Assembly (NCBI GenBank): GCA_031763025.1 | Contig: JASSKH010000002.1 | Span: forward strand, 13,261,468-13,325,467 | Source: Macrocystis pyrifera | Lineage: Eukaryota > Sar > Phaeophyceae > Laminariales > Laminariaceae | DNA length: 64,000 bases | Direction: 5' to 3' | Shown: positions 2,880 through 52,727 of the stretch, piece by piece | Numbering within the stretch: the stretch's first letter is position 1 | Layout: every line of letters starts with the position of its first letter | The notes under the pieces: model-generated | Seen by the model: the letters and a program-made list of their open reading frames with translations, nothing else | The model's database searches: none | What the model was told of the DNA's origin: nothing | Made by a program: the position numbers and the translations under genes

Positions 2880-3370
2880 ACTAAAAAAAAGCTACCAGGT
2901 ACGTGGTGGAAACAGCCTTTTCTCACGTCTTGTGGCCAAGCAGTTACCAGCACACGAACACTCAGCAGCAACTCTTAGCAGCACTCGAGCAACACTCGTA
3001 CGCCTATTGCTGCTGTTTTTGTACTGCTGCGTACTGCTCGAGCAGCACTCGAGCGCACGAGCATGATGAGTAGGTTTCCGAGTGTATTGCACCGCAAAAA
3101 AGAAGACACGGGACCACGATCACTCGATGGCTCAAGCGCAACGGGCACGAAACGAACACGAGCACGACGTGGCCAAGCAGCCACGGGCTCACGCGCACTC
3201 AACAGCAGAGCAGCAGCAGCACCCAGCGACACTCGGGTAACACTCGACTCGAGCAGCACTCGTACGCCTGCTGTTGCTGTTGTTTCACTGCTGCAGCTCA
3301 GCACGAGCTCGAGCAGCACTGCTGAATGCTGTTGCAGTCGCAGCAAGAAGCGAGAAGAATTTTTTTTTTG
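2880..3370. repeat. CAGCACTCGAGC-type repeat tract
   Basis: The stretch is dominated by GAGCAGCACTCG and CTGCTG motifs. A block of about 60 bp starting CGTACGCCT at 2,998 recurs diverged at 3,262. Frames are open on both strands because of the trinucleotide structure. One exact TACCAGGTA lies at its left end near 2,897. Confidence 0.6.
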
Positions 3371-3835
3371 CAGCTACAAATACCAAGATCCGGGTAGGTT
3401 TCCACGCCCCTAGATGGCTTTTCGGAAGTGGGACCCCATCCCCTGAGTTGCTTGCTGGGTCAGGTGACTTTGACCACCTACAGCATGTGCCACGGAGCCC
3501 GGGCGGAGCCAACGCTTGCACCGTACTGTCCACGCCGCCCCCCTGCGGCCCCCCCAGCAGGGAGCACGAGAAAAGACCCGCGGCCAAACGAGAAAAGTGA
3601 ATTATTCCGGAAAAAACGGCCATTTGGTACCAAGTAATACAAGGTTCCGCTTTGGGCTATATAGGTAACGTGAAATCCGGGGGGCGTCGCAAGGCGAAAA
3701 GGGAGTCACAGTTAACACACGTATACCTCCTGTTCTTGGCGGAAACGTGATCAATGGGATAGCGTATTGCTCGAAGGAAAGAGTAATAATAGTAGTCAGC
3801 AGGAACTGAGTACTACTTCTGTGGTGAATACTACA
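3371..3835. other. Unassigned stretch with a TACAAGG motif
   Basis: It holds a GC-rich block at about 3,480-3,600 and then a TACAAGGTTCC motif near 3,641. That motif is the one found at the ends of several elements in this window. The rest has no match to other parts of the window and no convincing coding region. Confidence 0.4.
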
Positions 3836-4955: not shown

Positions 4956-5060
4956 ATGGCTTCGGGAATGGCGGCGTCGGCCCCGGCCTCCTCTTTCCCG
5001 ACGCACATGATGGATGGCGACACTCCTCGAATCAATGCTCTGCTTGCTGTGTTTATATAA
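4956..5060 (+). CDS. Possible first-exon fragment, 34 codons
   Basis: An ATG in the context GACGCAATGG opens a 34-codon frame beginning MASGMAASAPASSF. A TATTATACAG box lies about 105 bp upstream near 4,850, and the leader between is pyrimidine/CA-rich as in a 5' UTR. The frame stops inside the TATATAAATA box of the OTU-bearing repeat that begins here. The second copy of that repeat (49.55 kb) lacks this leader, so the fragment probably belongs to flanking DNA and was cut short by the repeat. It resembles no family I know. It could also be a chance ORF. Confidence 0.25.
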   Translation: MASGMAASAPASSFPTHMMDGDTPRINALLAVFI

Positions 5061-5100
5061 ATACAACTATTATTACGATTTTTGGGGTCGGGTGTCACTT
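5054..5100 (+). promoter_or_regulatory. TATA-type core promoter of the OTU element, copy A
   Basis: TATATAAATA at 5,054-5,063 is followed 25-35 bp later by a GGGTCGG...GTCACTTGCTAGCTC block. The same pair recurs at 40,129, 44,301 and, diverged, 49,551. Spacing fits a TATA box and start site, with transcription probably beginning in the CACTTGC block. The promoter role is inferred. Confidence 0.5.
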
Positions 5101-5280
5101 GCTAGCTCTTGGCAAACAGACCAACTGATAGACAGCCCTTCGCAAACAGCCCTTAAGGCTTCTTCTTTGAAACAGCCGAACAGCCAAACAACCTTTACTT
5201 TCTTCTTTCTTCTTCGCAAACTGCCAACCAATAGACAGCTCTTCGCACGGCGCCTGACAGAGGCGTCTCGCCTTCGACGA

Positions 5281-5665
5281 ACGGCACAGGTGCAGCTGTC
5301 GGCGGCCAAGCTGCTGCTGTCGGTGGCGAACCTGCTGGTGCTGCAACCCCCGCCTCTCCCTTCTCCACGCCCCCTAAGCTCACCCCCCCCTCGTCGAGAG
5401 GCTCGTGGTCCTCGCCCTCTAGCGAGAGAGCGGCAACGACAAAGGCCGACCTGGTGCCGGCTGTTGTTTGCGACCGGTGCACGCACCAGCACTTACTTGG
5501 TCAAGAACTCCGCGCCTGGTGCCAAAAACGTGGCCTTCGCCACGTGCAAGGATCTCACGTGCGTTGGTGGCGGGATCATCCTGTACAGGGCAATCGAATG
5601 CGAGTTCTGTGCTCGCCGGATCAAGGAAGGGACTGCCTCGTACTCCCTCGAGACTGCTGAAGGTG
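5281..5665 (+). pseudogene. Cysteine-rich (zinc-finger-like) exon, OTU element copy A
   Basis: A Pro/Ser/Ala-rich lead (around the PASPFSTPP segment) precedes a cysteine pattern: VVCDRC, then an ATCKDLTC-type pair, then CEFCARRIKEGTASYSLE. C-x2-C plus C-x4-C plus C-x2-C spacing suggests a zinc-binding module. The exon ends at GTGAGT (5,666). In this copy the pattern is spread over more than one frame, so I call it a pseudogene. Copy B keeps the first two cysteine pairs in one frame. The two copies align along their length, which supports past coding. I do not recognise the family. Confidence 0.45.
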
Positions 5666-6018
5666 GTGAGTGTCTTAGGTCTATTGTTACATGCTGTCTG
5701 TTGCCAGTACGTTTGTTTGGGGTTTTCAATTGCCTTTTTGCATACAAACCTACCTCAAAGCGTTTATTTTTTGGACTCATCCATGCTCGTTCTTTCCCCT
5801 TCGTGCGTTGCGTCGGCTCCTCTTTTACACAGTGCACGCGAACGCGCATATGCACAACTGTTTGCGGGACGTGAACGAAGGAACGGAGGATTCAGCTGTC
5901 GCCGTCACCGCTGCACCGAACGACGTGAGTGCTGCTGCTACTGTGGTGCATTTTCGGCGCACACGATTTCTGTGTGTACATGTTTTGGTGACCCTACGTA
6001 CTCCTTTAGCTCGTTTTC

Positions 6019-6087
<69 letters not shown>

Positions 6088-6102
6088 TGCTGCTGCTGCA
6101 GC

Positions 6103-6147
<45 letters not shown>

Positions 6148-7950
6148 CAGCGCCACGCCATGGGTGCTGCTGCTGTGCACCTGCTGCTCTTGTGCACTTG
6201 CTGCTGCTGTAGTGCTGCTGCGTTTTCATACCATTGCTATGCTGCTGCTGCTGCCAACGCTGCGACGATTCGTTGCAGCTTCTGCTGCTGCTAATGCTGT
6301 AGCTGCTGCTGCTGCTAATGCTGCCGCAATATCCACTGAATGCTCGTATGTACTCGGATTACTGTTTTTGTTGGTCGTTTTTGTACCCAAATGGTTCTTT
6401 TGATACGTGTATTGTGTCGTTTTGCTCCTGCATTTTTCGTACGTACTGCTTTTTCTCGTTTTTTGGCTTGGTTCTTTTCATATCGTTGCTATGCTGCTGC
6501 TGCTGCTGTGGTGCTGCTTCGTTGTTGCCGTACATCATGCTGCACTTGTGTGAGTACATGTTTCTGTATCGTCAATGAAATTCCGTAGTTTTTGCGATTG
6601 CGGCATACCAGGGTACATAGTTTTTTTCTTACTTATTTTCATATCGTTGCTATGCTGCTGCTGCCAACGCGGATTATTGTTTTTAATGGCCGTTTTTGTA
6701 CCCAAATGGTTCTTTTGATACGTGCAAAAAATATTTTGGTCGTTTTGCTCCTGCATTTTGCGTACGTACTACTTTTTCTCGTGCTTTAGCTTGGTCCTTT
6801 TCGTATTGTTGCTGTGCTGCAGCTGCTTTGTTGCCGTACAGCATGTGGGGGTGGGTCTATAGTGAGGTACCAAAAATATTTTTCGGACGGCCTCGGGGTA
6901 CATATTTGTTTTCCTTTCTTCTTTTCATATCGTTGCTATGCTGCTGCTGCCAACACTGCGGCGATCCGTTGCTGCTGCTGCTGCTAGTGCTGCCGCAATA
7001 TTCACTGAATGTTCGTATGTACTCGGATAATAATTGTGTTTCTTGGTCGTTTTGTGGCGCTGCTGCGTTGTTGCCGTACATCATGCTGGCCATGATTTGT
7101 GTGTCTATTACACTTGTGCGTGTGTACATATTTCTGTATCGTGAATGAAATTCCGTAGGTTTTGCGATTGCGGCAGACCAGGGTACATAGTTTTTTTATT
7201 CCTTCTTTTCATATCGTTGCTATGCTGCTGCTGCTGCAGCCAACGTTGCGGCGATCCGTTGCTGCTTCTGCTGCTGCTGCTGCTGCCAATGCTGCTGCAA
7301 TGTTCACTGAATGTTCGTACGTACTCGGATCATTGTTTTTCTTGATCGTTTTAGTACCTAAATGGTTATTTTGGTACCTGGAAAAAATATTTTGGTCATT
7401 TTGCTGCTGCATTTTGCGTACGCACTGCTTTTTCTCGTTTTGGGCTTCGTTCTTTTCATATCGCTGCTATGCTGCTGCTGTGGTGCTGCTGCTGCGTTGT
7501 TGGCGTACATTATCCTGGTCATTTGTGTGTACATACTTTTGTTTCGCCAACGAAATTCCGTAGTTTTTGCGGTCGCGGCATTCCAGGGTACATACTTTTT
7601 TTCTTCTTTTTTTCATATCGTTGCTATGCTGCTACTGCTGCCAACGCTGCGGCGATCCATTGCTGCTTCTGCTGCTGCTAACGTTGCTAATGATATCTCA
7701 ACCACTGCTCGAAGCCGTTGCTGCTGCTGCTGTTACTGCTAGTGCTGCCTCAATATCCACTGATTGTTCGTATGTATTCGGATTACTGTTTTTCTTGGGT
7801 CGTTTTTGCACCCAAATGGTCGTTTTGGTACGTTTAAAAAAATATTTTGGCCGTTTTTCCAGCTGCGTTTTACGCACGTACTTGCTGCTTCTGCTGCTGC
7901 TGCTGCCGTCGTATAGTCAGCGATTACGTACTGCTGTTGTGTCGCTGTAG
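5666..7950 (+). repeat. Intron-like region: GCT triplet tract and tandem subrepeats
   Basis: It starts with GTGAGT and ends near GTCGCTGTAG. A pure GCT/CTG tract covers about 6,018-6,150. After it come diverged tandem units sharing CATATCGTTGCTATGCTGC (near 6,479, 6,640, 6,926, 7,208, 7,457 and 7,612), TTTTTGTACCCAAATGGTT and TTGCCGTACATCATGCTG. Long Ala/Leu/Ser/Cys-rich frames here only reflect the triplets. The copy in element B is shorter (about 1.65 kb) with fewer units, which shows expansion or contraction after duplication. Confidence 0.75.
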
Positions 7951-7963
7951 ATCAGTACAAAAA

Positions 7964-8562
7964 ATGAACTCTGCCCCCCCCCCCCCCCCCTCGTCTTCCC
8001 CCTCCCCCGCCATTCCCTGCACGCCACTCCCGCCCCGCGCACCCTATGTTTACTTCGACCAGGTCGGTGGCAAGCGCTACAACTGCCGCCTGACGGACTC
8101 CACCACCAAAGACGGAGACATCATCATCAAGCGCAAGAAGACTCCCTTCCATTTCGCCTGCTCCAGGGCTTCGCGGAATTCCGAAGCAGTACGCCAAGCA
8201 GATTGTCGCCATCCAGCACGAACGAAGGCAACAAATTGTTTCCCACATTTCCCAAAAAATCACGATTAATTCTTCCTACACATATCCAACGGGTTCAACA
8301 GCGAACAGATCCACATTCTGGGCCTCCCGCCTCGTTACTACAGCAGCCTGGAAGACTATTTACATATCATGTCTCATCCGAACTCCTATGCTGGCTACAT
8401 CGAAATCGTGGCCGCCCAGCAACTATATACAACATTTCCACAGCCGTTGTCGTTGCCGGCACTGCTGCTTTCCCTCCTGTCCCAAACCTTCCTTTAAACA
8501 ACAGCCTGTATGTTGTAAATCATCCACATGCCATGCACTTCTCCACGCTCTCCCCGCACTGA
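7964..8562 (+). pseudogene. OTU-like cysteine protease exon, copy A
   Basis: After a poly-C tract the exon begins MNSAPPPPPSSS and has a basic, charged segment (KDGDIIIKRKK). It then has the hallmarks of the OTU fold: a FHFAC helix, EDYLHIMSHPNSYAGYIEI at about 8,351-8,407, which matches the OTU pattern of a YL...M...Y.G.IE helix-strand unit, and HPHAMHFSTLSPH near 8,524-8,562, matching the strand with the catalytic His. OTU proteins cleave ubiquitin chains. The usual Asp-Gly-x-x-Cys nucleophile box is not evident before the FHFAC helix. The domain is not in one open frame here. Identification is by motif only. Confidence 0.5.
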
Positions 8563-8640
8563 TGAAAGATGTTATTATTACTATTAGACGAATGTCATTC
8601 TCTTGCGTCACCCGATCTTACGTTTCACATTACATTCATA

Positions 8641-8646
8641 AATAAA
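8641..8646 (+). terminator. AATAAA poly(A) signal after the OTU exon
   Basis: AATAAACGCGATTATTACAT follows the OTU stop by about 80 bp. The same AATAAATAAACGCG context follows the OTU exon of copy B at 52,585. Conservation in both copies supports a real 3' end. Confidence 0.5.
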
Positions 8647-8668
8647 CGCGATTATTACATCCTTCCCC

Positions 8669-8777
8669 GTTTCTTACAAAAATACATTTAGTTTGGCTAG
8701 CTTTGGGCTATTACCCCAATTGCACAATGGCGTCATAGCCCAAAGCCAACCAAACTGAATGTATTTGTACAAGAAAC
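8669..8777. repeat. Hairpin at the 3' end of OTU element A
   Basis: Two 43-bp arms (8,669-8,711 and 8,735-8,777) are near-perfect reverse complements around a 23-bp loop. They contain TTTGGCTAGCTTTGGGCTAT and ATAGCCCAAAGCCAACCAAA. The hairpin recurs at 35,025-35,131 (reversed), 46,848-46,977 and, with its right arm mostly missing, 52,617-52,698. It ends about 33 bp before the TACAAGG terminus. Confidence 0.8.
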
Positions 8778-8810
8778 GACGGAATACCCACTCCGAAGGA
8801 AAGCCTTGTA

Positions 8811-12240: not shown

Positions 12241-12886
12241 CCTGACTACTGTAATTATATGACACATGCAATATATATGCTACTGACGTACATACATATA
12301 TACAAGATTTCCCTCCCGGGTGGCACGTAACGATTCGACGAAACAACGCAATAGGAGGTGTCAAAAAGGTACTACTTCGAAGTACACCGGGTATGAAAAT
12401 ATCCAAACCTAGATGCACAGAGAAAGGTACGGTGGATTACATTTTCTTAGAGGGTGGTGCAAGAGACATGCCACAAAAATACTTGCTTATATGCTACTTC
12501 GAATTACCAGGCATATATGTGCCGGGTATACTGTACGTACATAGCGAGGAGACTGTCATACTTGCGTCTTGAAGGGGTTGAAAAATGATGCTATTCATAC
12601 TAACTAAGCAGTCCAAACTGAGACGACGAGAGATAAATAGCCCTACGACAGAGCAGTCATATAGACCCACCACCAGCAGCAGCAGAGAGGAGTACACAAT
12701 CTGCTGGTACGAGTATACTGGAGGAGTTGACATACTGTGCACCGGGGTTTTTTTCCGGCACCAAAGACAACAAACGACACTCACTTGTACTCGTGGTGAT
12801 GTTTGTGAGGGGGGCATACATATCATGGTTGTGCGGCTACGCACTTGTTTATTGCTGCAGCAGACCTGAACTACAGTACATAAAAG
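12241..12886. other. Unassigned stretch
   Basis: Holds a TACAAGATTTCCCTCCCGGG motif at 12,301 and a TACTTCGAAGTAC palindrome near 12,370. Open frames of about 90-115 codons occur on both strands, but none has a recognisable motif or coding-like composition. Confidence 0.35.
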
Positions 12887-15340: not shown

Positions 15341-15888
15341 GCCTTGATTTTTTGTCCCCGGTTTGTTGGAGTTGGAAATATATCGGAATGCCTACGATGC
15401 CGGCTCAACGAACCTCATCCAATCAGTTATGGGGCCAGCGGGGTTGTGGTTTCCACACCGTGCGGGGCGGTATCGATCCGAAGGGCCGCCATTTGCGTCC
15501 CCAAGATGTCAGAGTTGCAGACAAATGGAAGGATGATTGATGCCGGGGTGGCACTCTATTCCCCGCGGGTGCTGTTGGTTCAACAAACGCCGGCCAATCA
15601 GTGATCAGCCAATGGGGTTGAGATTTCCACAACGTACGGGGAAGTATCGACCCGGGGGGTCACCATTTTCGACCCAGGTTCGTGGGAGTTGCACACGTAT
15701 GGAAGTGTTTATGATGTGGGGATGATACCCTATCGCCCCGAGGTGCGCGGTTCCTCAACGTTCCCCCAGGCATTCAGCGAATAGCCAGTGCGGTTGGGGT
15801 TTCCACACCATGTGAGGTAGTATCGACCCGAATATTCCCCGTTTTCGTCCCCGAGTTGTCGGATTTGTAAATGAATGCAATAATTGTA
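15340..15888. repeat. 165-bp tandem repeat, array 2 (left part)
   Basis: Three units with GGGTTGTGGTTTCCACACCG, GTATCGACCCGGGGGGTCAC and ATTTGTAAATG-type blocks. The array is interrupted at 15,889 by the 2-kb USP-like element and resumes at about 17,928. Confidence 0.85.
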
Positions 15889-15889
15889 G

Positions 15890-16189
15890 GGCAGGGCAGC
15901 CCTGCTGTTCCCTAGGTGTTACCATATAATAAAAGGTTGGACGGAGGTATGAAAATTCTCTCGCGACGTCGATATTTGCCACGTAGAATATTGCTTGTTT
16001 GAAGATGCTGCAGTTGCCGCTATTTCGAAGCAAAAAACCAAAACATAGCATCACAGTCGCATCGCGCAGATTGCGATGACCTCGACGTGTCGCGAACACA
16101 GCCTTACCAAATAAAACGCCGCAGTCAAGTCCAAGATGACAACAGGCATACACGTAGACTTTTCGCCAATGATCGTCACGTACATGCAC
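15890..16189 (-). CDS. Unknown ORF in USP-bearing element A, partial
   Basis: The minus-strand frame encodes HLGLDCGVLFGKAVFATRRG, then NSGNCSIFKQAIFYVANIDV. The same frame is longer and open in copy B (59,530-60,099), and the two differ by few residues. That suggests either coding or simply recent duplication. No family recognised. The plus-strand frame over the same bases is also open and similar in both copies, so strand is uncertain. Confidence 0.3.
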
Positions 16190-16649
16190 CCCGTAAACAA
16201 CACTCTGTCGACCGAACAGTTAACACAAATGTAGCTGCGCAGAACTCAAACGAAAGGCTGGACGCGCCGTGCAACATGTCTGCAAAATGCGTTCTAGCGA
16301 AAAGACGGAAACAAGAAGGCAGGCAGTCCCAATCGAGAAGAAATATCACACAAAAAATCAAAACGTTTCAACACACATGTGAAGAACACGTGAGACGCTC
16401 AAGGCGGCGGTACGTCGGAGTCGAGTCGGCAAGGCACAGCTGCGCTTCCCACGCCGTAGTGGCCAGGACTTCGGTAAGGCGGAGGCATGATGGGTCCTTG
16501 TCTAGTCACCTCGATTATCTCCGCGCATTCTTGGCTTGCGCGCTCATGGTTTGCGAGAACTACGGTATGGTGTCGTTTGTGCCTGGGCAACAGGCACGGT
16601 CATAGACTTTCGAAGGTAGACACACATATGCTGGAAACTATGATACCCG

Positions 16650-17054
16650 TCATAGTCGAAATCGTCGCAAGAGGTACTCCCCCCCGATGATGCAATCGAA
16701 GTTCAACCACCGCCCTCTCGAACGCAACTGGGTCACGAAATGGTTCGGAATGGAGCAGATGACAGCTACGAGGTAGTGCTCAACGCCTATCATGGAAATG
16801 GGTGACGGTGCTGGCGGCTCTCCGCCGTCCTCGTAGATGTCTACACGTGCAGACGCGAAGAAAACGCGATCTGGGGCGTTGTCCGCACACCAAGGAAGAA
16901 TCGACCATACGGATGTGCTGATGTGCCGGGCGCAGTTCTCGTCGCAGGGGGGGCACGGAGCAGGTCCAGGAAATGAGAAGTCCGAGGCGGCCCCGGTCAG
17001 GAACAAGGCATTGACTGCATCCTGGAGTGACGGGGGCGGTCCGTGCGGAATCAA
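16650..17054 (-). CDS. USP (peptidase C19)-like C-terminal segment, copy A
   Basis: A 134-codon open frame has the layout of the second half of a ubiquitin-specific protease. SLQDAVNALF (residues 9-18) resembles the helix before the zinc-binding insert. CPPC (34-37) resembles the CxxC pair. ISTSVWSILPW (45-55) is followed by a hydrophobic/basic strand. NHFVTQLRSRGRWLNFD (104-120) matches the H[FY]...R...W..[YF]D box that holds the catalytic His. USPs remove ubiquitin. The N-terminal Cys box is not seen, and there is no ATG at the start, so this is a remnant or one exon. By-eye assignment only. Confidence 0.4.
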   Translation of the reverse strand: MIPHGPPPSLQDAVNALFLTGAASDFSFPGPAPCPPCDENCARHISTSVWSILPWCADNAPDRVFFASARVDIYEDGGEPPAPSPISMIGVEHYLVAVICSIPNHFVTQLRSRGRWLNFDCIIGGEYLLRRFRL

Positions 17055-17927
17055 GACTGGTGCGGGATCTCGCCATCATGCATATTTGGATGCAGTTATC
17101 TCGATATGGCCATGCTCCTCGACACGGCAATCGGTAGTGTAGTTGCGAGTTGAATCCGAGAGCCGTCCGAGTGTACATGATACGAGCATGCCGTTCCACG
17201 ACGTCACCTGGCCATCCGCTGTTGGCGTGGAGTTGATCATCAGGTCGAAGGGTGATATGGAGAGGTCCGATCGAGACCCCGGCTGCTAAGCGGCAGCACC
17301 GTTGTTGACGTGGTAAATGTAAGTATCAAGAAAAGTACGTAGGAAGCACTTATTCGTACCATAGAATTTCCGCTTTTTCCTGTTTTGGTACTATAAAAAT
17401 TTGGGTTTGCCACTATAAGAAGTGGGTACCATAGGTTGCAGGTATCAAGAAGTCAGTATCACTGCAGTCTTGTTTCGATCAGCTGTGTAGGGTGTTAGAA
17501 GGGTAGGTTGTCTGTCGTCCAACGATTTTGAGGCGTTTCAGTCGATTCTCGTCCGCCTCAATGCCGGTCGAGCAACGTTTGCACAGCAAGATATAGGCGG
17601 TGTTTATGGTGTGGAGGGAAAGGACGACCGCAGGAACTATACTGCTACTACTACTGCTGTGCTCTCAAGTGGTTGCAGGGGACACCCTGCTACTACTGTG
17701 ACGCAGCTTTTAGGTCCACTATATACTTCAATGAAATTATGACGAGCTTGCCGATCCAAAATACCAACCGCGCAGCTCGAACAGCAGAGACGGCGGTGCG
17801 TGGTGGTGGTGCAGGCAAACGGTGGCGACAGCACGCACATGCGTACTGCTGTCCTCTCGATCGGCTGTGAGAATTGCACTGCCGCTCAGAACAGCAAAGG
17901 CGTACAGCAGTTTTTTTTTTCTGGTGG

Positions 17928-19919: not shown

Positions 19920-20870
19920 CAACAAACAACGTAAAAACTGACTAGACGTTTCGAGCTTGCACCAATCAAACGAGAGCTATGACTTACCGTATGACTTACA
20001 AAACGGCCGTGATTGGCCAACAGTGCCGTTACAACTGCTGCTGAGCACAAATATCGTATTGAGCGTGCTACGAGTACAACAACCAGGCTATTCCACATCG
20101 CTGCGGCCATGCCGCCCGGCAGCAGCAGCAGCAGGCAAAACCATGCGCGTGAGGTGGAACATCCGCAGCATACTCTATGGCTTGTTGCATGTACCGGAGC
20201 CTGCGGTGCATCACGGAGGATGGATAGACAGAGCTTGGGGTGCGGGCGCACGTATGTATCCCGACTCCCGACTACACCCACGACGACGACCAACAATAAC
20301 CGCCACCTGCTGTTGCCCAGCAGCAGTAACAGGCCCAACCAGCGCGTGAGGTGGCACATCCGCGGTGTACTCTTGGCTATTGTGCCAGTAGTTGCAAGTG
20401 TCGGAGCCTACGACCCGTCATAGAGAATAGATAGGCAGAGCTTGGTGTGCGGGGGCATGTATGTTTGTATCTCGACTCCCGAACACGCCAAACGATCAAC
20501 AACCAACTGCCACTCCTAATAGGCAAAACTGCGTGAGATGACACATCCGGGGTGTACTCTTGGCTACTTACTGCATACTGTACTTACTTGTAGTTGATGT
20601 GTCGGAGCCTACGATGCGTCATCGGGGATAGATAGGCAGAGCTTGGGGTGCGAGCGCATGTACGTATGTAGTGTATGTATCCCTACTCCCGACTACGCCC
20701 ACCACAACGATTAATAACCAACTGCTACCACACATATCTGCAAGAGGTGGGTGTGCTCTTGGCTACTGTACCTGTAGTTCCAAGTGCAGGAGTCTACGAT
20801 GCATCATCGAGGATAAATAGGCAGAGCTTGGGATGCGGGCGCACGTATGTATGTATGTACAAGGTTCGCT
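19920..20870 (-). repeat. 190-bp repeat array (four units), reverse orientation
   Basis: Units share GCGTGAGGTGGCACATCCGC, GGTGTACTCTTGGCTA, TGTCGGAGCCTACGA, AGATAGGCAGAGCTTGGGGT and a TATGTATCCCGACTCCCGA block. The first unit adds a 200-bp leader beginning near AACAACGTAAAAACTGAC. Forward copies lie at 25,250-25,680 and 61,680-62,735. An open frame of about 90-130 codons is kept in the leader of all three copies. Confidence 0.8.
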
Positions 20871-22010
20871 CTGCGGGCGGCCTACGCCGCCCGCTACGCT
20901 CGCTCAGGAAGGAAAAGCACATCAAATTATGCTAAGCGGACACAGGTCTATGATTGAATATAGTTTTCTCATGCTTGATCGTAGTTGCAAACTGGCTAGG
21001 TGATAATGCCAAGAGTCCCGCCCGCCATGCTTCAGGAGAAAAAAGCTCGGACGCCACATACGCTTCTCGTCACGGGCGGTTTTCCGCTACGCTCGCTCAC
21101 ATGTCGTACGTACGTACATACCCCAGTTAGGGTACTTATTTTCCCCTTTCGATATATATTATGCTCGATGTCTGTACTCGCATGTACGAAAGATGAAGCA
21201 CACAGCAAGCCACAGCAGCACCCCAAAAACAATGAAAATGAAACCGAAAATTTCGGAAAGAAAAAAATCCCCGTCCCCTCTCGTGCAATAATTTCCTGCC
21301 TGATTGGAACACCTTACACCGGTCAAAAAGAAAAAAAAGAAAAAATCCGACAGGAGAGCTTCTCTCTCAGCCTCGTACGCCGCCTGCCCCTCTCGCGACC
21401 ATCTCGCCACCGATTCAGTTCGCGTAAAGCTTTCTTCCCTCTCTTCCACAGTGAGCCCCGTCGCCCGCTTCGCGCAAAGCCCGGTGCTCACCGTGGACCT
21501 CGTTCGCCAGCTCGCAATGTTGGTGCCCTGACTGCCCCACTCTCACTCTTATTTTGAGTTTCGTCGCAAAAATAAGCACCACTTGAATTGTATTTTACTC
21601 ATCAAAACGATCCTTATATACTCGAACACAGAATAACCGGAACCACACCAGGAGGCGGGACAGAGCCCATTCATGCTTCCCTCGTGTCTCGAGGCACACA
21701 CGACGCCTAGGCACGAAAACTGCGACCGCGCTCCTTGCAACCCCCCCCTCTACCCGCCAGCACCCGCAGATACCCGCGACGGTGCCCCGCTCGCCAACGG
21801 AACCGTGCTCAGAGTACACACACGCATACGAAACGAAAGAAAATAAAAGGAAAGAAGGACTGAAACTGCAAAGAGAAATGGAGAAAACAAAGACCCGCTG
21901 GAAAGGTCGGGCAAGTAATAAAAGGAGGCGATTCCCAAGTGGGAGCTCTGAGAGGCCAGGGATGTACCAACCGAGCACGCTCCGAGATCGAGTTCTATGT
22001 ATGTATGTAG
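20858..22010. repeat. 1.2-kb tandem unit 1
   Basis: Begins TACAAGGTTCGCTCTGCGGG, then the GGCGGCCTACGCCGCC hairpin and CGCTACGCTCGCTCAGGAAGG. It has a CTACGCTCGCTCACATG second block, an A-rich segment, a GC-rich segment with the conserved minus-strand ORF, and ends in a short TATG run (21,996-22,007). This unit is the most diverged of the four. Confidence 0.85.
21350..21491 (-). CDS. Conserved minus-strand ORF, unit 1 copy (no ATG)
   Basis: The frame carries TGLTVEEREESFTRTESVAR and WSREGQAAYEAEREALL, as in the other tandem units. It lacks the MSTN start seen in units 2-4. A TATATAAGGATCG box lies upstream on the minus strand near 21,615. Function unknown. Confidence 0.3.
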
Positions 22011-22502
22011 AAGGCACTTCGCTCCGCGGGCGGCCTACGCCGCCCGCTACGCTCGCTCAGGAAGGAAACATCAAATAATGCGAAGCGGACAGAGGTCCAT
22101 GATTGAATATTGTTTTTTTTATGGGCCCTGTAGTTAGCTGCAAACTGGCGACTTGATAATGCCAAGAATCTTGCCGCCATGCTCCAGGAGAAAACAGCTC
22201 GGACGCCACATATGCTTCGCGTCGCGGGCGGTTTTCCGCTACGCTCGCTCGCACGTCGTACATACGTACATACCCCAGGTAGGGTACTTATTTTCTTCTT
22301 TCGATATGCTCTGTGTCTGTGTACTCGTATGTACGAAAGATAAAACACAGAACGGCACAGCAACACAGCAAAAACAACGAAAATGAAACCGAAAATTTCC
22401 AAAAGAAAAAAATCCCCGTCCCCTTTCGTGTAATAATTTACTACCTGAGTGGAACACCTTACACCAGTCGAAAAAAAAAAAAAATTGAAAAAAAAAAAAA
22501 TC

Positions 22503-22685
22503 TTACAGCAGAGCTTCTCTCTCAGCCTCGTACGCCGCCCGGCCCTCCCGCGACCATCTCGCCACCGATTCAGTCCGGGTAAAGCTTCCCTCCCTCTCTT
22601 CCACAGTGAGCCCCTTCGCCCGCCTCGCGTGAAGCCCGGTGCTCACCGTGGACCTCGACGCAAGCTCGACAATGTTGGTGCTCAT
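22503..22685 (-). CDS. Conserved 60-codon ORF, unit 2
   Basis: ATG to stop: MSTNIVELASRSTVSTGLHA, then RRAKGLTVEEREGSFTRTES and VARWSREGRAAYEAEREALL. It is basic/acidic and mostly helical by eye. A TATTTAAGGGTCG box lies about 100 bp upstream of the ATG on the same strand (22,775 region). After the stop (or a GTAAGA donor overlapping it) comes a long T-rich tract on the same strand. Differences among copies are largely conservative, which hints at coding, but the plus strand is also open. Function unknown. Confidence 0.4.
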   Translation of the reverse strand: MSTNIVELASRSTVSTGLHARRAKGLTVEEREGSFTRTESVARWSREGRAAYEAEREALL

Positions 22686-23156
22686 TCGGGGTACCTCCCT
22701 CTTGTGACTCTCAGCCCGGTCGAGAAAATAGGAACCGCTTGAATATTATCTTACAATCCCGAACGACCCTTAAATATTCGCACGTACTCTATCCAAAATC
22801 ATAAATGGAGGCCAGACAGAGCCTGTTGATGCATCCCTCGTGTCTCGAGGCACACGCGACGCCTAGGCACCAAAGCGGCGACCGCGCTCCTTGCAACTCC
22901 CCCTCTACTCGCCAGCATCCGCTGACACCCGCGACAGTGCCGGGTTCGCCGGCGCAACCGTGCTCGGAGTACACGCACACACACGAAACGAAAGAAGAAA
23001 AAAGGAAAGAAGGACTGAAAGTACGACGAGAAATGGAGAAAACAAAGACTCGCTGGAACGGTCCGGCAAGTAATAAACGGAGGCGATTCCCAAGTGGGAG
23101 CTCTGAGAGGCCAGGGATGTACCAACCGAGAACGCTCAGAGATCGAGATCTAACTA

Positions 23157-23268
23157 AGTATGTATGTATGTATGTATGTATGTATGTATGTATGTATGTA
23201 TGTATGTATGTATGTATGTATGTATGTATGTATGTATGTATGTATGTATGTATGTATGTATGTATGTA
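23157..23268 (+). repeat. TATG microsatellite, 28 units
   Basis: Uninterrupted TATG repeat at the junction of tandem units 2 and 3. The Met-Tyr-Val-Cys frames read through it are artefacts of the repeat. Confidence 0.98.
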
Positions 23269-23275
23269 CCTACAA

Positions 23276-24457
23276 GGCGCTTCGCTCCGCGGGCGGCCTA
23301 CGCCGCCCGCTACGCTCGCTCAGGAAGGAAACATCAAATTATGCGAAGCGGACAGAGGTCCATAATTGAAAATAATTGCTTTTTTTTATGGCCCCTGTAG
23401 TTAGCTGCAAACTGGCGACTTGATAATGCCAAGAGTCTTGCCGCCATGCTTCAGGAGAAAACAGCTCGGACGCCACATATGCTTCGCGTCGCGGGCGGTT
23501 TTCCGCTACGCTCGCTCACACGTCGTACATACGTACATACCCCAGGTAGGGTACTTATTTTCTTCTTTCGATATGCTCTGTGTCCGTGTGCTGGTATATA
23601 CGAAAGATAAGCACAGAACGGCACAGCAACACAGCAAAAACAACGAAAATGAAACCGAAAAATTCTAAAAGAAAAAAATCCCCGACCCCTTTCGTGTAAT
23701 AATTTACTGCCTGAATGGAACACCTTACACCAGTCAAAAAAAGAAAAAAATGAAAAAAATGAAAAAAGAAAAAATCTTACAGCAGAGCTTCTCTCTCAGC
23801 CTCGTACGCCGCCCGGCCCGCTCGCGACCATCTCGCCACCGATTCAGTCCGGGTAAAGCTTCCCTCCCTCTCTTCCACAGTGAGCCCCGTCGCCCGCCTC
23901 GCGTGAAGCCCGGTGCTCGCCGTGGACCTCGACGCAAGCTCGACAATGTTGGTGCTCATTCGGGGTACCTCCCTCTTGTGACTCTCAGCTCGGTCGCAAA
24001 AATAAGCACCGCTTGAATATTATCTTACAATCCCGAACGACCCTTAAATACTCGCACGTACTCTATCCAAAATCATAAATGGAGGCCAGACAGAGCCTAT
24101 TGATGCATCCCTCGTGTCTCGAGGCACACGCGACGCCTAGGCACCAAAGCGGCGACCGCGCTCCTTGCAACTCCCCCTCTACCCGCCAGCATCCGCTGAC
24201 ACCCGCGCCGGTGCCGGGTTCGCCAGCGCAACCGTGCTCGGAGTACACGCACGAACACGAAACGAAAGAAGAAAAAAGGAAAGAAGGACTGAAAGTACGA
24301 CGAGAAATGGAGAAAACAAAGACGCGCTGGAACGGTCCGGCAAGTAATAAACGGAGGCGATTCCCAAGTGGGAGCTCTGGGAGGCCAGGGATGCACCAAC
24401 CGAGCACGCTCAGAGATCGAGATCTAACTAAGTATGTATGTATGTATGTATGTAGAA
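23276..24457. repeat. 1.2-kb tandem unit 3
   Basis: Nearly identical to unit 2 apart from the TATG tract (five copies here, 24,433-24,453) and small indels in the A-rich middle. It holds the conserved minus ORF at 23,777-23,959. Confidence 0.9.
23777..23959 (-). CDS. Conserved 60-codon ORF, unit 3
   Basis: MSTNIVELASRSTASTGLHA, then RRATGLTVEEREGSFTRTES and VARWSRAGRAAYEAEREALL. Same upstream TATTTAAGG box and downstream T tract as unit 2. It differs from units 2 and 4 at a few residues. Function unknown. Confidence 0.4.
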   Translation of the reverse strand: MSTNIVELASRSTASTGLHARRATGLTVEEREGSFTRTESVARWSRAGRAAYEAEREALL

Positions 24458-27590: not shown

Positions 27591-28760
27591 CAGTTGAACG
27601 CTCAAAGTTCCCCAGCAACTTCAATGATTTTTGCGATCTCTCCACCGTCTCTTTTTTTCCCTTCGACACCGACAACGTCACTTCAGCGGTATTACTGGTT
27701 GCACCTCAACGTAATGCATGCTGTCTTCGTCCCCGCCGGACGTCACCGAAGCAAGGTCACGAGGCAGTTGTACGCTGTGTCCAGTCAAACATACGAAATA
27801 TCACATAACTCACTTGTTTTTAGTACCCTCTCAAACGACGTAAAAATGTCGCCTTCGCCCATGTAGTGCTGCAGTTCCGTTTTGGGGACAAACCACTCAA
27901 ATTACAAGTAGGTTGTCCCCAAAAGAGAACTGCAGTCCTAAATCCTTCCAACTGCACCCACAGCATTGGGGAGATACTATTACGGGGGTACATAGTTAAT
28001 AGGACCTATGGTATTCATTAAAACCTATATATTTACCTATTTTTACTAACAAAATTTGGTCCCGTTAACTATGGACCCCCGTAATACTAGGAATCAGTGT
28101 TCTACTATTTTTGCAGTACTGAAGTTATAAGAGCACTCTCAAAGACCTTCGTTCACCATGCCCACGCCCTTTCAACGACACTAAACATTCCTAAACAATT
28201 GCCTATATTTCCTTCGGACGATCTCATTGAGGTCACTTAAACGTCTCTCATATCGTCCTCACCCTTGTAAAAAACCGCAGAAGAGGGGGCAGGAGGCAAC
28301 AGAAAGCCCTCAACGTAACTGTTTCGGCCCAACGCATACATTTCCAATGGTTTATGTTGTTCAACGGCTCTACTGCCGTCACCCAAACGTTTTTCATGCT
28401 GTCCCTGTCACTGTAGGACATCGCGGCAGCAAAAGGCAGATGTACGCCCATAACGTCACATCAACGTCAGAGTTTGCAATTTCAACGGCCTACACATTTT
28501 AATGGTCACATCAATGTCACTTCAACGTTGTTAATTATCGTCCTTGCATGACGGGGGCAGGAGGCGCTTGTAAGTATAAAATTTCGTATTAACAGTCCTA
28601 CTTGCAATTTCAACAGCATCCGTAGCTTTGGCTGCAATGGTCGAATACATCGTTGTCACGCTGTCCTTGATATTGTAGGATATCATGGCAGCCGGGGACA
28701 GGAGGCAGTTGAACACCCGCAATGTCGCCGTAACGGTCGTATGTTTCGTTTTCAACGGTT
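27590..28760 (-). repeat. Tandem array, period about 145 bp, array 1
   Basis: Units share TCAACGGT, TTTTCATGCTGTCC or GTCACGCTGTCC, TTGTAGGATATCATGGCAGC and GGGGACAGGAGGCAGTTGAA. On the minus strand many units read VFNCLLSPAA followed by SYNIKDS or SYSDRDS. The period is not a steady multiple of three, so coding is doubtful. A MITE is inserted at 27,980. The second array is at 56,230-57,590. Confidence 0.7.
27980..28084. mobile_element. Complete 105-bp MITE (TA target, Tc1/mariner-like)
   Basis: The ends are TTACGGGGGTACATAGTTAA and its near-complement TTAACTATGGACCCCCGTAA. TA flanks both sides (27,978-27,979 and 28,085-28,086). The TA duplication, short terminal repeats and AT-rich core are typical of mariner-type miniature elements. 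Other copies lie at 1-90 and about 55,702-55,804. Confidence 0.8.
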
Positions 28761-45189: not shown

Positions 45190-45777
45190 TTATTTGTCAC
45201 TAATGTTTGGCCGTGCGAGAGTCGCCCGAATATTGTTTTTACTCAGTTCGTTTTGGCTCTCATCATCATGCACTGATTGCTGTAACTGTTTTAGCTCTCC
45301 GCCAAGTCTCTGCAGCGAAGATATCAGGAGAAGCACTTGCACCCGTTGACAGACAGCAAATTTCTCTTGCCATGCTTTGACTGACTGTGACTCGGAAGTA
45401 TCACAGGTTCTAGTGTGGAACCCTTGGGGCTTTGACAGGGCGCGTTTGTCTTGCTTGACATGTCTCCTGATATATTTGCTTCTGTATGATATACGTACAC
45501 GTTCCGGCTCCAATTTCGCTAATACGTTTTGAATGTTTCTCGCGTAGTTTACTATTTTTTCGATACTGCTGTTTGGCGGTTGTTGCCGTGTGCTCTGCCT
45601 GTAAAAACGCCCTCGGTGACCCCGACGAAAGAACGGTCGCCGATGACGACTTCGGCGAGCGGGGGGCGCGGAGAGGCGTTGTCCCGGGCACGGCTCGCCC
45701 TCTCCCCGGGAGCGGGGAGGGATATCCTCGACACTGGATAGTGATAAACCAATCCACACTACTTCGGAGATAATAAT
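45190..45777 (-). CDS. Unassigned open frame, about 195 codons, no ATG
   Basis: The frame follows a TTCGATTTTAG that could be a splice acceptor (about 45,815) and reads into IEKIVNYARNIQNVLAKLEP, RSKYIRRHVKQDKRALSKPQ and LQRLGGELKQLQQSVHDDES. Charged, amphipathic helices dominate from the middle on; the first 60 residues are Arg/Pro-rich and less convincing. No repeat in the window matches it. A coiled-coil-type protein or exon of unknown function is possible. Confidence 0.3.
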   Translation of the reverse strand: MIISEVVWIGLSLSSVEDIPPRSRGEGEPCPGQRLSAPPARRSRHRRPFFRRGHRGRFYRQSTRQQPPNSSIEKIVNYARNIQNVLAKLEPERVRISYRSKYIRRHVKQDKRALSKPQGFHTRTCDTSESQSVKAWQEKFAVCQRVQVLLLISSLQRLGGELKQLQQSVHDDESQNELSKNNIRATLARPNISDK

Positions 45778-45997
45778 TTCCACACTAATTCCAAGACAAC
45801 GTTTTCCACACTAAAATCGAAATACATTTTTTCAAAAAGTCGAACGAAAGTAAAAAAAGAGTCCCCGAATTTCGAGACAGATTCGAAAAACATCCAAACT
45901 GAGCGAGATAGCCGCTCATGCTCTACACCCAAGATAAAAAGTTCCAAAAAATCAAAATCTCAAAAAAATAAAACCTAAAATATACAAAGGAGTGTTG

Positions 45998-46075
45998 TCG
46001 TGTACGAGGTACTAGTTCCGCGGGAGGGCGCTCGACAGACAAGCGCAGACACGTGAGTTCGAATCCCACTTGAAT
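45998..46075 (+). tRNA. Degenerate tRNA-like sequence
   Basis: GAGTTCGAATCCCAC at about 46,055-46,069 is a good B box/T-loop. CTAGTTCCGCGGGAGGGCGC upstream resembles a D-arm. GCGCT and AGCGC could pair around a nine-base loop, but a normal anticodon stem and an acceptor stem do not form. It is a pseudo-tRNA or the head of a tRNA-derived SINE, not a working tRNA. Confidence 0.3.
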
Positions 46076-46082
46076 TATAATT

Positions 46083-46345
46083 GCAATTTTTTGGGGCGGT
46101 GGGTAATTATTGTTTTGGTACATGCGTATTTTAGTGCATTTTTTTTTTTTCGTTTGGTTGGTACAGCAATTGTATGGCTTTGGGTATTACATATTTCATC
46201 GTACAGAAGTACTTGGGCAGAACATTGCGGGTTGGTGGGTCTGTTGGTGGATTTGTCGATGGTTCGTGGGCGGGTGTGTAGGTGGGTCGGTCGGTTCGTA
46301 CGTGAATTAATGCTTTCTTCGTGCATGTGGGTAGTGACCCTGTGA
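46083..46345 (-). repeat. Inverted single copy of the 330-bp family
   Basis: GGGTATTACATATTTCATCG, GGTGGGTCGGTCGGTTCGTA and GCTTTCTTCGTGCATGTGGG are the reverse complement of blocks in 35,468-36,450. Confidence 0.85.
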
Positions 46346-46574
46346 TTTTTTTATAATTAAATGTTTGTCCGCTACTATACCGGCCCGTTTTGGCATACTT
46401 CAGAATATCACTGCGGTTTACAGAAACATTTCATAATGCAAGCCGTGTCTTTACACGAACCAAGTACAAACATAGGAAAACAGTAGATAGATACACCAAG
46501 TATTCAGTCATGTCAATCTGGGCCGTTATTTCATGCGTCACCGTCGTTATAGTTGTAACACGACGACTACGACG

Positions 46575-47015
46575 GGAACTCAACTACTGCTGCTATCGAA
46601 ATCGCGGCCGCCCAACAACTATACGACATTTATTTCCATAACCGTTGTTGCTGGCACTGCTGCCTTCCCCCTCGTACCGAACCCTCCTCCAGTCAAAATC
46701 ACCCCCATGCCACTACTCAACCTTGGCCCCGTACTGCTGTAAATAGTGCCTGGAATTACCCTGTTTTGTTGTTCGCGGCGTTTAAACCTCATTCTTGCGT
46801 CATCCGCTCATCGGTCACATTGTTAACGCTGCCAAGATAGTATTTCCGTTTCTTACACAAATACAACTTCGTTTGGTTGGCTGTCTATAGGCTATTGCCC
46901 CAAGTGCAGCATATGACTGCAATAATTGGCGGATTAGCCCAAAGACAACCAATCGAAGTCGTATTGGTACAAGAAACGACTCCATCTTACTACTACTCCG
47001 AAGGAGAGCTTTGTA
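46575..47015 (+). mobile_element. 3' fragment of the OTU element, copy C
   Basis: Carries CATCGAAATCACGGCC-like sequence (here TATCGAAATCGCGGCC), the CATAACCGTTGTTGCTGGCA segment, the hairpin (46,848-46,977) and a CTCCGAAGGAGAGCTTTGTA end. Only the last part of the OTU exon is present. It has diverged more from A and B than they have from each other. Confidence 0.7.
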
Positions 47016-49130: not shown

Positions 49131-49148
49131 ATATATATTGTAGTACCA

Positions 49149-49426
49149 GTATGTATGTATGTATGTATGTATGTATGTATGTATGTATGTATGTATGTAT
49201 GTATGTATGTATGTATGTATGTATGTATGTATGTATGTATGTATGTATGTATGTATGTATGTATGTATGTATGTATGTATGTATGTATGTATGTATGTAT
49301 GTATGTATGTATGTATGTATGTATGTATGTATGTATGTATGTATGTATGTATGTATGTATGTATGTATGTATGTATGTATGTATGTATGTATGTATGTAT
49401 GTATGTATGTATGTATGTATGTATGT
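49149..49426 (+). repeat. TATG microsatellite, about 69 units
   Basis: Perfect TATG repeat. Plus-strand Met-Tyr-Val-Cys and minus-strand His-Thr-Tyr-Ile frames are artefacts, including the long minus frame at 49,116-50,159. Confidence 0.99.
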
Positions 49427-49852
49427 GCTGCACCTTATTACTCAGCCGGTCACAAAGTATTATGGCGCAACCTCGACCTCGCGCAACTTTTATGTACTTA
49501 CGAATTAATCGCCGCGAGTCAGCTGGATCAATATATCTCAACTTACCGATATAGATACAACTATAATTACGATTTTTGAGGTCGTTGTCACTTGCTGGCT
49601 CTTGGCAGACAGACCGACTGATAGACAGCTCTTCGCAAACAGCCCTTCTTCTTTGAAACAGCCGAACAGCCAAACAACCTTTCTTCCTTCTTTGAAACAG
49701 CCGAACAGCCAAACAACCTTTCTTCTTTCTTCTTCGCCAAACAGCCAAACAACCTTTTCTTCTTTCTTCTTCCGCAAACTGCCAACCAATAGACAGCTCT
49801 TCGCACGGCGCCCAAAAGAGGCGTCTCGCCTTCGACGAACGGCATAGATAGG

Positions 49853-50231
49853 TGCAGCTGTCGGCGGCCAAGCTGCAGCAGTCTGCTGCTGTCGGTGGCG
49901 AACCTGCTGGTGCTGCAACCCCCGCCTCTCCCTTCTCCACGCCCCCTAAGCTCACCTCCCTCTCGTCGAGAGGCGCGTGGTCCTCGCCCTCTGGCAAGAG
50001 AGCGGCAACGACAACGACCGACCTGGTGCCGGCTGTTGTTTGCGACCAGTGCACGGACCAGCACTTGGTCAAGAACTCCGCGCCTGGTGGCAAAAACGTG
50101 GCCTTCGCCACCTGCAAGGATCCCACGTGCGTGGTGGCGGGATCATCCTGACAGGGCAACCGACTGCGAGTTCTGTGCTCGCCCGATCAAGGAAGGGACT
50201 GTCTCGTACTCCCTCGAGACTGCTGACAGTG
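49853..50231 (+). pseudogene. Cysteine-rich (zinc-finger-like) exon, copy B
   Basis: The open frame contains PAGAATPASPFSTPP, VPAVVCDQCTDQHLVKNSAP and FATCKDPTCVV in one frame; CEFCARPIKEGTVSYSLE follows in another. The C-x2-C, C-x4-C and C-x2-C pattern agrees with copy A. GTGAGT follows directly. Unknown family; zinc binding is inferred from cysteine spacing. Confidence 0.45.
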
Positions 50232-50785
50232 GTGAGTGTCTTACGTCTATTGTGCATGCTGTATGTTGCCACGTCTTTTAAGGGTTTTCAATTGCCTTTT
50301 TGCATACAAACCTACGTCAAAGCGTTTTTTTTTTTTTACTCATCCATGCTCGTTCTTTCCCCATCGTGCGTTGGGTCGGCTCCTCTTACACACAGTGCAC
50401 GCGAACGCGCACATGCACAACTGTTTGCGGGACGTGAAGCACACGATTTCTGTGTGTACATGTTTTGGTGACCCCACGTACTCATTTTGCTCGTTTTCGG
50501 CTGCCGCTGCTGCTGCTGCTGCTGTCAGCGCCACGCCATGAGTGCTGCTGCTGCTGTGCACCTGCTTATCCGGTGCACTCGCTGCTGTCGTAGTGCTGGT
50601 GCGTTGTTGCCGTGCTGTGCACCTGCTGCTCCTGTGCACTTGCTGCTGCCGTATGTAGTGCTGCTGCTTTGTTGCCGTGCATCATGCTGGAAGCGTACAT
50701 ATTTTCGGATCGTCAATTCCGTAGGATTTGCGATGGCGGCATACCAGGGTACATACTTTTTTTCTTCCTTATTTTCACATCGTTG

Positions 50786-50842
<57 letters not shown>

Positions 50843-51890
50843 CAACGCTGTGGCGATTCGTTGCAGCTTCTGCTGCTGCTAATGCTGTAGCTGCTTCTGC
50901 TGCTGCTGCTGCAAATGCTGCCGCAATATCCACTGAATGTTCGTATGTACTCGGATTACTGTTTTTCTTGGTCGTTTTTGTACCCAAATGGTTCCTTTTG
51001 ATACGTGAAAAAATATTTTTTGTCGTTTTGCTCCTGCATTTTGCGTACGTACTGCAATTTCTCGTTTTTGGCTTGGTTATTTTCATCTATATCGTTGCTA
51101 TGCTGCTGCTGTGGTGCTGCTGCGTTGTTGCCGTACATCATGCTGCACTTGTGTGTGTACATATTTCGGTATCGTCAATGAAATTCCGTAGGTTTTGCGA
51201 TTGCGGCATACCAGGGTACATACTTTTTTTCCTCCTTATTTTCATATCGTTGCTATGCTGCTGCTGCCAACGCGGATTATAGTTTTTATTGGCCATTTTT
51301 GTACCCAAATGGCTTTTTTGATACTTACGTTTTCTCGTAATTCGTATTGTTGCTATGCTGCTGCGTTGTTGCCGTACAGCATGCGGAGGTGGGTCTATAG
51401 TGAGGTACGAAAAATACTTTTCGAACGGCCTCGGGGTACATACTTTTTTTCTCCCTTCTTTTCATATCGTTGCTACGCTGCTGCTGCCAACGCTGTGGCG
51501 ATCCGTTGCTGCTTCTGCTGCTGCTGTTGCTCTGCTTTTAGTGCTGCCGCAATATTCACTGAATGTTTGTATGTACTCGGATAATTGTGTTTCCTGGTCG
51601 TTTTGTGGCGCTGCTGTGTTGTTGCCGTACATCATGCTGGACATGATTTGTGTGTCTATTACACTTAAACTTGTGCGTGTGTACATATTTCTGTATCGTC
51701 AATGATTGTTTTTGTGGTGCTGCTGCGTTGTTGCCGTACATCATGCTGGACGTGATTTGTGTGTGTACTGTACTACACTTGTGCGTCTACATATTTCTGT
51801 ATCGTCAATGAAATTACGTACTTGCTGCTTCTGCTGCTGCTGCTGCCGTCGTATAGCAAGCGATTACGTACTGCTGTTGTGCCGCTGTAA
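50232..51890 (+). repeat. Intron-like region of copy B
   Basis: GCT tracts at about 50,500-50,530 and 50,788-50,845, then tandem units with CATATCGTTGCTATGCTGC, GTACATCATGCTGCACTTGT and GTACCCAAATGGTTCC as in copy A. Ends near GTGCCGCTGTAAG. Confidence 0.75.
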
Positions 51891-51903
51891 GAGTAGTACA
51901 AAT

Positions 51904-52506
51904 AATGAACTCTGCCCCCGCCCCCCCCCCCCCCCCCTCCCCCGCCATTCCCTGCACGCCACTCCCGCCCCGCGCACCCTATATGTTTACTTCGACCAGG
52001 TCCGTGGCAAGTGCTACAACTGCCGCCTAACGGACTCCACCATCAAAGACGGAGACATCATCATCAACCGCAAAAAGACTCTCTTCCATTTCGCCTGCTC
52101 CAGGGCTTCGCGGAATTCCGAAGCAGTACGCCAAGCAGACTGTCGCCATCCAGGACGAACGAAAGGAAACAAATTGTTTCCCACATTTCCCAAAATCACG
52201 ATTATTTCTTCCTACACATATCCAACGGGTTCAACAGCGAACAGATCCACATTATGGGCCTCCCGCCTCGTTACTACAGCATCCTGGAAGACTATTTACA
52301 TATCATGTCTCATCCAAACTCCTATGCTGGTTACATCGAAATCACGGCCGCCCAGCAACTATACCAGGTACAACATTTCCATAACCGTTGTCGTTGCCGG
52401 CACTGCTGCTTTCTCTCCTGTCCCAAACCTTCCTTTAAACAACAGCCTGTATGTTGTATATCATCCACATGCCAAGCACTACTACTCCACTCTCTCCCCA
52501 CACTGA
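51904..52506 (+). pseudogene. OTU-like cysteine protease exon, copy B
   Basis: Starts MNSAP after a C-rich tract. Carries TLFHFACSRAS, SNGFNSEQIHIMGLPPRYYS, EDYLHIMSHPNSYAGYIEI and, in another frame, SLYVVYHPHAKHYYSTLSPH. HYYSTL fits the OTU catalytic His strand better than copy A does. A TATACCAGGTACA at about 52,362 replaces TATATACA of copy A. The domain is spread over frames, so this copy looks inactive. Confidence 0.5.
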
Positions 52507-52727
52507 TGAAATATGTTATTCTTATTATTAGACGAATGTCATTCTTACTCTTGCGTCACCCGATCTTACGTTTCACATTACATTAATAAATAAACGCGAT
52601 TATTACATCCTTCACCGTTTCTTACACAAATACATTTAGTTTGGTTGGCTTTGGGCTATGTCGCCAATTAATTGCAGATTTATGTACACGAAACGACGGA
52701 ATACCCACTCCGAAGGAAAGCCTTGTA

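Follow-up and report, generated by a model that had tools for sequence, protein, structure and literature searches.

We analyzed a window of 64,000 nucleotides from the giant kelp Macrocystis pyrifera (contig JASSKH010000002.1, positions 13,261,468 to 13,325,467 of the forward strand) and found that two long repeats within it, copies A and B, are very probably Helitrons, i.e., rolling-circle transposons, that have been internally deleted and are non-autonomous. The OTU (deubiquitinase-like) stretch that they carry is a dead remnant: the tail of a RepHel-OTU gene, encoding Rep, helicase and OTU, that was joined by a deletion to the last exon of another gene. The sequence comparisons indicate that the short copies were most likely moved by full-length relatives with an OTU-bearing transposase. 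An earlier interpretation of the window based on its letters alone (hereafter the sequence-only reading) had proposed a mobile non-autonomous family with fixed ends and OTU-derived sequence behind a cysteine-rich exon, and our results agree with this proposal. The two long copies, the OTU-like motifs and the AATAAA signal were found where that reading had placed them, and Helitrons, which it had named as a possible home, are indeed indicated by same-ended relatives carrying Rep, a PIF1 helicase and OTU.

The family was delimited by searching the assembly of the window itself (537,376,219 bases in 223 contigs). This search yielded 115 matching pieces, the best 28 of 1,675 first-look candidates being scored, and 27 fetched loci were compared in addition to the window. 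The lineage marker rbcL had no match in the assembly. Copies A and B align with one another in their 5′ and 3′ parts (84.6% and 89.0% identity, respectively) and have their termini in common. We then aligned 29 5′ ends and 24 3′ ends, each with a match reaching within 8 bases of the end of the query. The element starts with RATACAACTAT or a near variant, and TA precedes it in 28 of the 29 rows; the exceptional row (L029) lies inside an AAT repeat and is ambiguous. A terminal TA closes 23 of the 24 3′ ends, with CA in L013. The flanks are unlike between loci, apart from three loci considered below and several insertions within copies of one short repeat. The 20-bp 3′ terminus (CTCCGAAGGAAAGCCTTGTA) has 1,247 exact matches genome-wide and the 5′ terminus pattern has 1,092, counts that take in full-length copies and any other derivatives. 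The reversed control of each returned 0, which excludes chance as the origin of the repeat family. The sequence-only reading had started copy A at 5054, but the exact boundary is 5060 and the preceding TATATA is host target; the shared TATATAA that it read as a promoter is present but is partly insertion site. Its 3′ boundary at 8810 (TTGTA) was correct, and similarity ends at this terminus in the copies lined up across the genome.

Evidence for a Helitron origin comes from full-length copies elsewhere in the genome. A profile search with PF02338 identified 16 OTU places, and in ten of these loci (L036-L045) a 3′ end of the copy A type (query 3172-3757, 87-89% identity) lies directly behind the OTU. 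A second search with PF14214 identified 63 Rep places among 74 candidates, one of them ~3.4-3.5 kb upstream of the OTU in each of the same ten loci. In three of the ten, at C192:7093821, C209:1840734 and C200:20354305, a single open frame covers both Rep and OTU (1,623, 1,646 and 1,439 amino acids, respectively). The C192 copy was retrieved whole (L055 210 to L052 6564; 11,655 bp) and the C209 copy by its two ends only (L056 and L039, ~12.4 kb apart). In full-length copies, a cysteine-rich accessory gene is followed by the RepHel-OTU gene. The 1,623-amino-acid frame of L052 matched Helitron_like_N (5e-38), PIF1 (2e-57), OTU (8e-9; 36.5 bits for a cut-off of 23.3) and also Pif1_2B over the Pfam cut-offs, and its best match in the PDB was Helraiser (1.3e-172). 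It contains the motifs HAH (483), YLYKYCFK (634), GSGKT (1005) and GDGAC (1489) and a C-terminal HYS. One partner protein thus combines a Rep of the HUH type with two tyrosines and a PIF1-type helicase, the combination by which the Helitron superfamily is recognized. The 13 Pfam families listed for this frame at E-values up to 1 include no endonuclease, and one scan of viral contigs returned no relatives of RepHel.

With a PF02338 match and the Asp-Gly-x-Cys/His motifs, the full-length parent is predicted to be an OTU cysteine protease. Its OTU part matched OTUD1 and OTUD5 in the PDB by sequence. OTU folds occupied ranks 1-32 when a low-confidence predicted model was compared with known structures (predicted local distance difference test, pLDDT, of 60.6), one of them with E <0.001, at template modeling scores of 0.29-0.39. 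Over 2.1 kb at their 3′ ends, six full-length loci show 99.9-100% identity, whereas the remaining four are 95-99% identical to these six and to one another. The near identity of the six suggests that the family has likely moved recently. In the full-length loci, the differences showed a weak bias across codon positions (42/48/59 in the helicase-OTU part, p 0.22; 13/5/22 in the OTU part, p 0.004); since six of the ten loci are near-identical, this bias lends thin support to constraint. We also observed a second, diverged family at L047 (G000:C127:3027785, with Rep at C127:3024296), in which an OTU 47% identical to that of the first family lies ~3.5 kb behind Rep. Under the separate-branch reading considered below, this family would point to a lineage rather than a one-off.

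The short copies can be derived from such a parent in one step. Positions 2902-3171 of copy A correspond to L052 578-837 and positions 3172-3757 to L052 5967-6564. Each of the 28 short copies examined (29 rows, with L034 represented twice) has its breakpoints at these positions, give or take a few bases, which would most simply be explained by one founder deletion behind all of them. The 28 are the copies with a tail match of more than 400 bp, a stretch missing from L019, L021, L022, L029 and L033, and none of the C-type pieces (window, L013 and L014) enters the short-copy counts. An internal duplication of the OTU tail was seen in L034, where L052 5973-6061 is matched twice.

The sequence-only reading had seen an OTU-like deubiquitinase exon here and had proposed a Pfam search as a check; the OTU frames of copies A and B gave no match to PF02338 in Pfam, literally the outcome that it had named as refuting, and the match came from the full-length parent instead. 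It is conceivable that a functional protein is encoded by the fused exon of the short copies, e.g., one that represses the full-length element or acts as its decoy: both motifs stand in one open frame in 8 of the 29 rows, and 7 of the 28 copies are free of frame-breaking indels in the OTU tail. We consider this very unlikely, however. Internal frame-breaking indels were found in 21 of the 28 short copies against 1 of the 10 full-length loci, the differences in the remnant are spread evenly across codon positions among short copies (87/97/86), and the catalytic Asp/Cys part has been deleted.

A distinct, undescribed class of transposon lacking a replication enzyme was also among the suggestions of the sequence-only reading, but the RepHel of full-length relatives contradicts the second half of that description. 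The unusual ends, the TA target and an accessory gene with no profile match over the cut-off speak for a distinct class, which is nonetheless extremely improbable: the Rep and helicase of the partner are ordinary Helitron domains, both by profile and by similarity to Helraiser.

Empty sites bear on how the element inserts. When the two flanks of the C192 copy are joined, they align with a repeat of the window that carries no insertion (92% identity over 112 bp, no gap at the join). Among the matches listed, further empty counterparts of this site were gapless in L028 and L017 and had gaps away from the join in L025 and L016, and the empty sites hold one TA. Window position ~46480, inside the divergent element C, is likewise the unoccupied paralog of the site that received an A-type element in L013. 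Insertion occurs beside TA and leaves the target unchanged beyond this dinucleotide. The repeat hit by the C192 copy is short and has inverted ends (TATTACGGGGG...CCCCCGTAATA); it lies in the window at 27978-28089 and 55727-55811, and its TA-rich center is the landing site in L009, L017, L019, L052 and L056. L015 sits in a different short repeat of similar build.

A TA on both sides, in the proportions of end rows given above, and a single TA at empty sites would also be expected from a cut-and-paste DNA transposon that duplicates its TA target (Tc1/mariner-like) and whose inverted repeats have decayed. We give this explanation almost no credence, since the 5′ and 3′ ends of copy A are not inverted copies of one another, same-ended partners encode RepHel, and exact head-to-tail junctions are frequent. 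Equally little credence is due to the alternative offered by the sequence-only reading, a host gene for OTU multiplied through segmental duplication, which could account for the common flanks of L010, L011 and L012 and for OTU frames broken as they may be in gene duplicates, but which is refuted for the family as a whole by common sharp edges, which fall at two fixed points although the flanks differ otherwise, and is opposed by more than 1,000 copies of each terminus and by empty sites with no gap at the join.

The exact head-to-tail junction, GCCTTGTA followed directly by RATACAACTAT, was found 117 times genome-wide (control, 0). Direct joins were present in the fetched loci L009, L026, L031, L032, L039 and L045, with one base altered in L032, and the join in L020 contains four extra bases. 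The first 100 3′ ends of the listing include 11 neighboring pairs less than 5 kb apart, of which 10 lie on the same strand. In L039 and L045, the 5′ end of another, short-type copy follows immediately after the 3′ end of a full-length one. These joins are compatible with rolling-circle replication or with re-insertion at the terminal TA, and the joining of such unlike copies favors re-insertion for some of them. As a sign of strand displacement or of a circle, the 117 junctions are suggestive only. Under the Helitron interpretation, RepHel supplied by full-length copies would nick the 5′ end, peel off one strand and stop at the 3′ terminus, and the copy would be pasted beside TA. Two units in a row could arise if replication reads through the end, if a circle is transferred or if a copy re-inserts at the terminal TA. 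The OTU of the full-length protein would probably strip ubiquitin from the transposase or from a host factor.

Several observations weigh against this interpretation. The 5′-TC, CTRR-3′ and A/T insertion of Helitron1 were not found in these elements, whose ends are RATACAAC...CCTTGTA beside TA. No exact inverted pairing of at least 8 bp exists between the first 80 and the last 220 bases of copy A, the longest exact end-to-end pairing being 7 bp (exact pairings, copy A only). The stem in the terminal 30 bp has no more than 3-4 pairs. The large inverted repeat ~32 bp from the 3′ end lacks its right arm in 10 of 41 3′-end rows, copy B included, as judged by eye and folding energy on rows that include two unrelated window sites and one place twice; the hairpin that the sequence-only reading described as common to the copies is thus a property of most rows. 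The frame is interrupted between Rep and OTU in seven of the ten full-length loci. The flanks of L010-L012 are common, so some copies spread by duplication or sit in another repeat. Finally, one TA precedes the element and another forms its last two bases, which makes the absence of a duplication indistinguishable from a 2-bp TA duplication. Rows without the right arm of the hairpin include members of tandem pairs, and it is therefore improbable that spread depends on this structure. The last 20 bp are near-constant between copies, and a weak fold was seen at the 5′ end of copy A (no shuffle baseline). It is possible, although doubtful, that these elements represent a separate rolling-circle branch characterized by a TA target, by the lack of TC/CTRR and of obvious asymmetric inverted repeats, by a RepHel-OTU fusion without endonuclease, possibly by a nick-binding accessory protein, and by frequent multi-unit head-to-tail insertion straight from replication.

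The cysteine-rich exon is part of a gene of its own, which lies upstream and is interrupted by a long CTG-rich stretch, with exon borders inferred (Table 1). Its product had no Pfam match over the cut-off and no significant PDB match. Matches to DUF2685 (0.0014; 19.2 bits, under the cut-off of 25) and to Zn_ribbon_Top1 (9.9, noise) were rejected, and the AlphaFold model of the last exon was uninformative (pLDDT 46.8). The CxxC...HxxC spacing resembles that of PARP-type fingers, but the profiles give no support to this resemblance. The accessory protein may carry two finger-like motifs; that it would bind nicked DNA is the weakest of our inferences.

Other parts of the window contain more distant relatives. 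The sequence-only reading had assigned 46.58-47.02 kb to the same family as a 3′ fragment, but this is the 3′ end of element C, a divergent relative that is 71% identical to copy A over the final 180 columns and 79% over 97 OTU-tail columns, and 68.6% identical to a full-length copy over 458 columns. The similarity of L013 to element C extends upstream to 45492 or further. Sequences similar to the 3′ terminus, differing from it at 4-6 of 23 positions and preceded by unrelated sequence, occur at 27259-27281, 53225-53247 and, on the minus strand, 12301-12323; they may mark the termini of further Helitron families or match by chance. The window further contains large tandem repeats at 20845-25252 (units of ~1.15-1.25 kb, 80-95% alike), a 2-kb repeat in two copies that are 92% identical (15886-17927 and 59592-61661), a long GTAT tetranucleotide array at ~49148-49426, ~130 bp upstream of copy B, and a shorter one at 23155-23268.

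Table 1. Positions of the elements and of their parts in the window
Feature	Position	Strand	Remarks
Copy A, very probably a non-autonomous Helitron, AATACAACTAT... to ...CCTTGTA	5060..8810	+	Sharp edges across loci; genome-wide counts of termini
Target dinucleotide TA immediately 5′ of copy A	5058..5059	+	Frequency among aligned 5′ ends given in the text
Accessory exon 1 remnant, cysteine-rich, CxxC pairs, GT donor at end	5263..5665	+	Borders by eye; frame damaged in copy A
Accessory exon 2, inferred, AG/GT bounded	5833..5924	+	By eye
CTG-rich repeat stretch, read as intron (inference)	5925..7950	+	Longer in full-length parent
Accessory last exon, KRYNC...FHFAC, truncated by deletion	7951..8224	+	7955-8224 matches L052 578-837
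Deletion junction, copy A	8224..8225	+	~5.1 kb of parent gone (L052 838-5966, spanning Rep, the helicase and the N-terminal part of OTU)
OTU C-terminal remnant, copy A	8225..8562	+	L052 from 5967 to gene end; catalytic Asp/Cys part gone
AATAAA, copy A	8641..8646	+	
Large imperfect inverted repeat close to 3′ end of copy A	8668..8778	+	Absent from some copies
3′ terminus of copy A with short stem	8791..8810	+	Exact genome copies counted in the text
Unoccupied copy of the repeat hit by the C192 full-length element	27978..28089	+	
Element D, another divergent element, related to C	34981..~35581	-	5′ border approximate
Element C, divergent relative	45492..47015	+	OTU-tail sequence, related 3′ terminus, common upstream repeat reaching at least to 45492
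Copy B, very probably also a non-autonomous Helitron, from the deletion lineage of copy A	49554..52727	+	Without right arm of large hairpin
Same deletion junction, copy B	52161..52163	+	

Brown algae gain a well-defined Helitron system from these results, with near-identical full-length copies, more than 1,000 of each terminus, one founder deletion and empty sites. This material is suited to testing replication termination and the formation of tandem copies, and it bears on why deubiquitinase domains recur beside RepHel. It also calls for caution in annotation, since what kelp gene models show as OTU exons may be remnants of transposons. According to the accessible parts of the respective papers, Helitrons have been counted in Ectocarpus (PMC12477816) and mentioned for giant kelp (PMC8958530), and the word Helitron is absent from the main text of the giant-kelp reference paper (PMC10498591). 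The activity of transposon OTUs has never been assayed according to the available text of PMC9741609, which also describes OTU beside RepHel. In the passages of the literature available to us, which included neither Repbase nor most subscription papers, we saw neither a RepHel-OTU fusion that lacks an endonuclease nor ends of this kind described.

Like Helitron1 (Helraiser, the best PDB match), the kelp element has a RepHel with HUH, two tyrosines and a PIF1 helicase, leaves the target unchanged beyond the dinucleotide and has non-autonomous deletion derivatives. Unlike Helitron1, it lacks 5′-TC/CTRR-3′, targets TA rather than A/T, and possesses an OTU at the C-terminus of RepHel as well as a cysteine-rich accessory gene. 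Phytophthora infestans is, like kelp, a stramenopile. The proto-Helentron of this species resembles the kelp element in a RepHel of similar length (1,783 amino acids) without endonuclease or introns, but has 5′TT/CTAG-3′ ends, inserts at A/T and carries an accessory gene with a SET domain, and its description mentions no OTU fused to RepHel, as far as the accessible text goes (PMC4067079). In the same portion of that source, Helentrons carry OTU alongside RepHel and have non-autonomous partners sharing full-length ends, as in kelp, but possess a C-terminal AP-type endonuclease and insert at TT, whereas the kelp element has a C-terminal OTU, inserts at TA and has no endonuclease family that we could find (PMC4067079). 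FoHeli resembles the kelp element in its non-canonical ends, and both tandem copies and products with joined ends are reported for it in the sections available (PMC5148889). Helitron2, which the accessible text of PMC3627910 defines by asymmetric inverted repeats (taken here as asymmetric terminal inverted repeats of 8-15 bp plus a 5′ hairpin), shares these repeats with FoHeli (PMC3627910, PMC5148889, both as available); in kelp copy A, no exact pairing of at least 8 bp was found. OTU-bearing Helitrons and non-canonical ends are thus already known, and what is unusual in the kelp element is its RATACAAC...CCTTGTA ends, TA-adjacent insertion, C-terminal OTU without endonuclease, accessory gene and 117 head-to-tail junctions.

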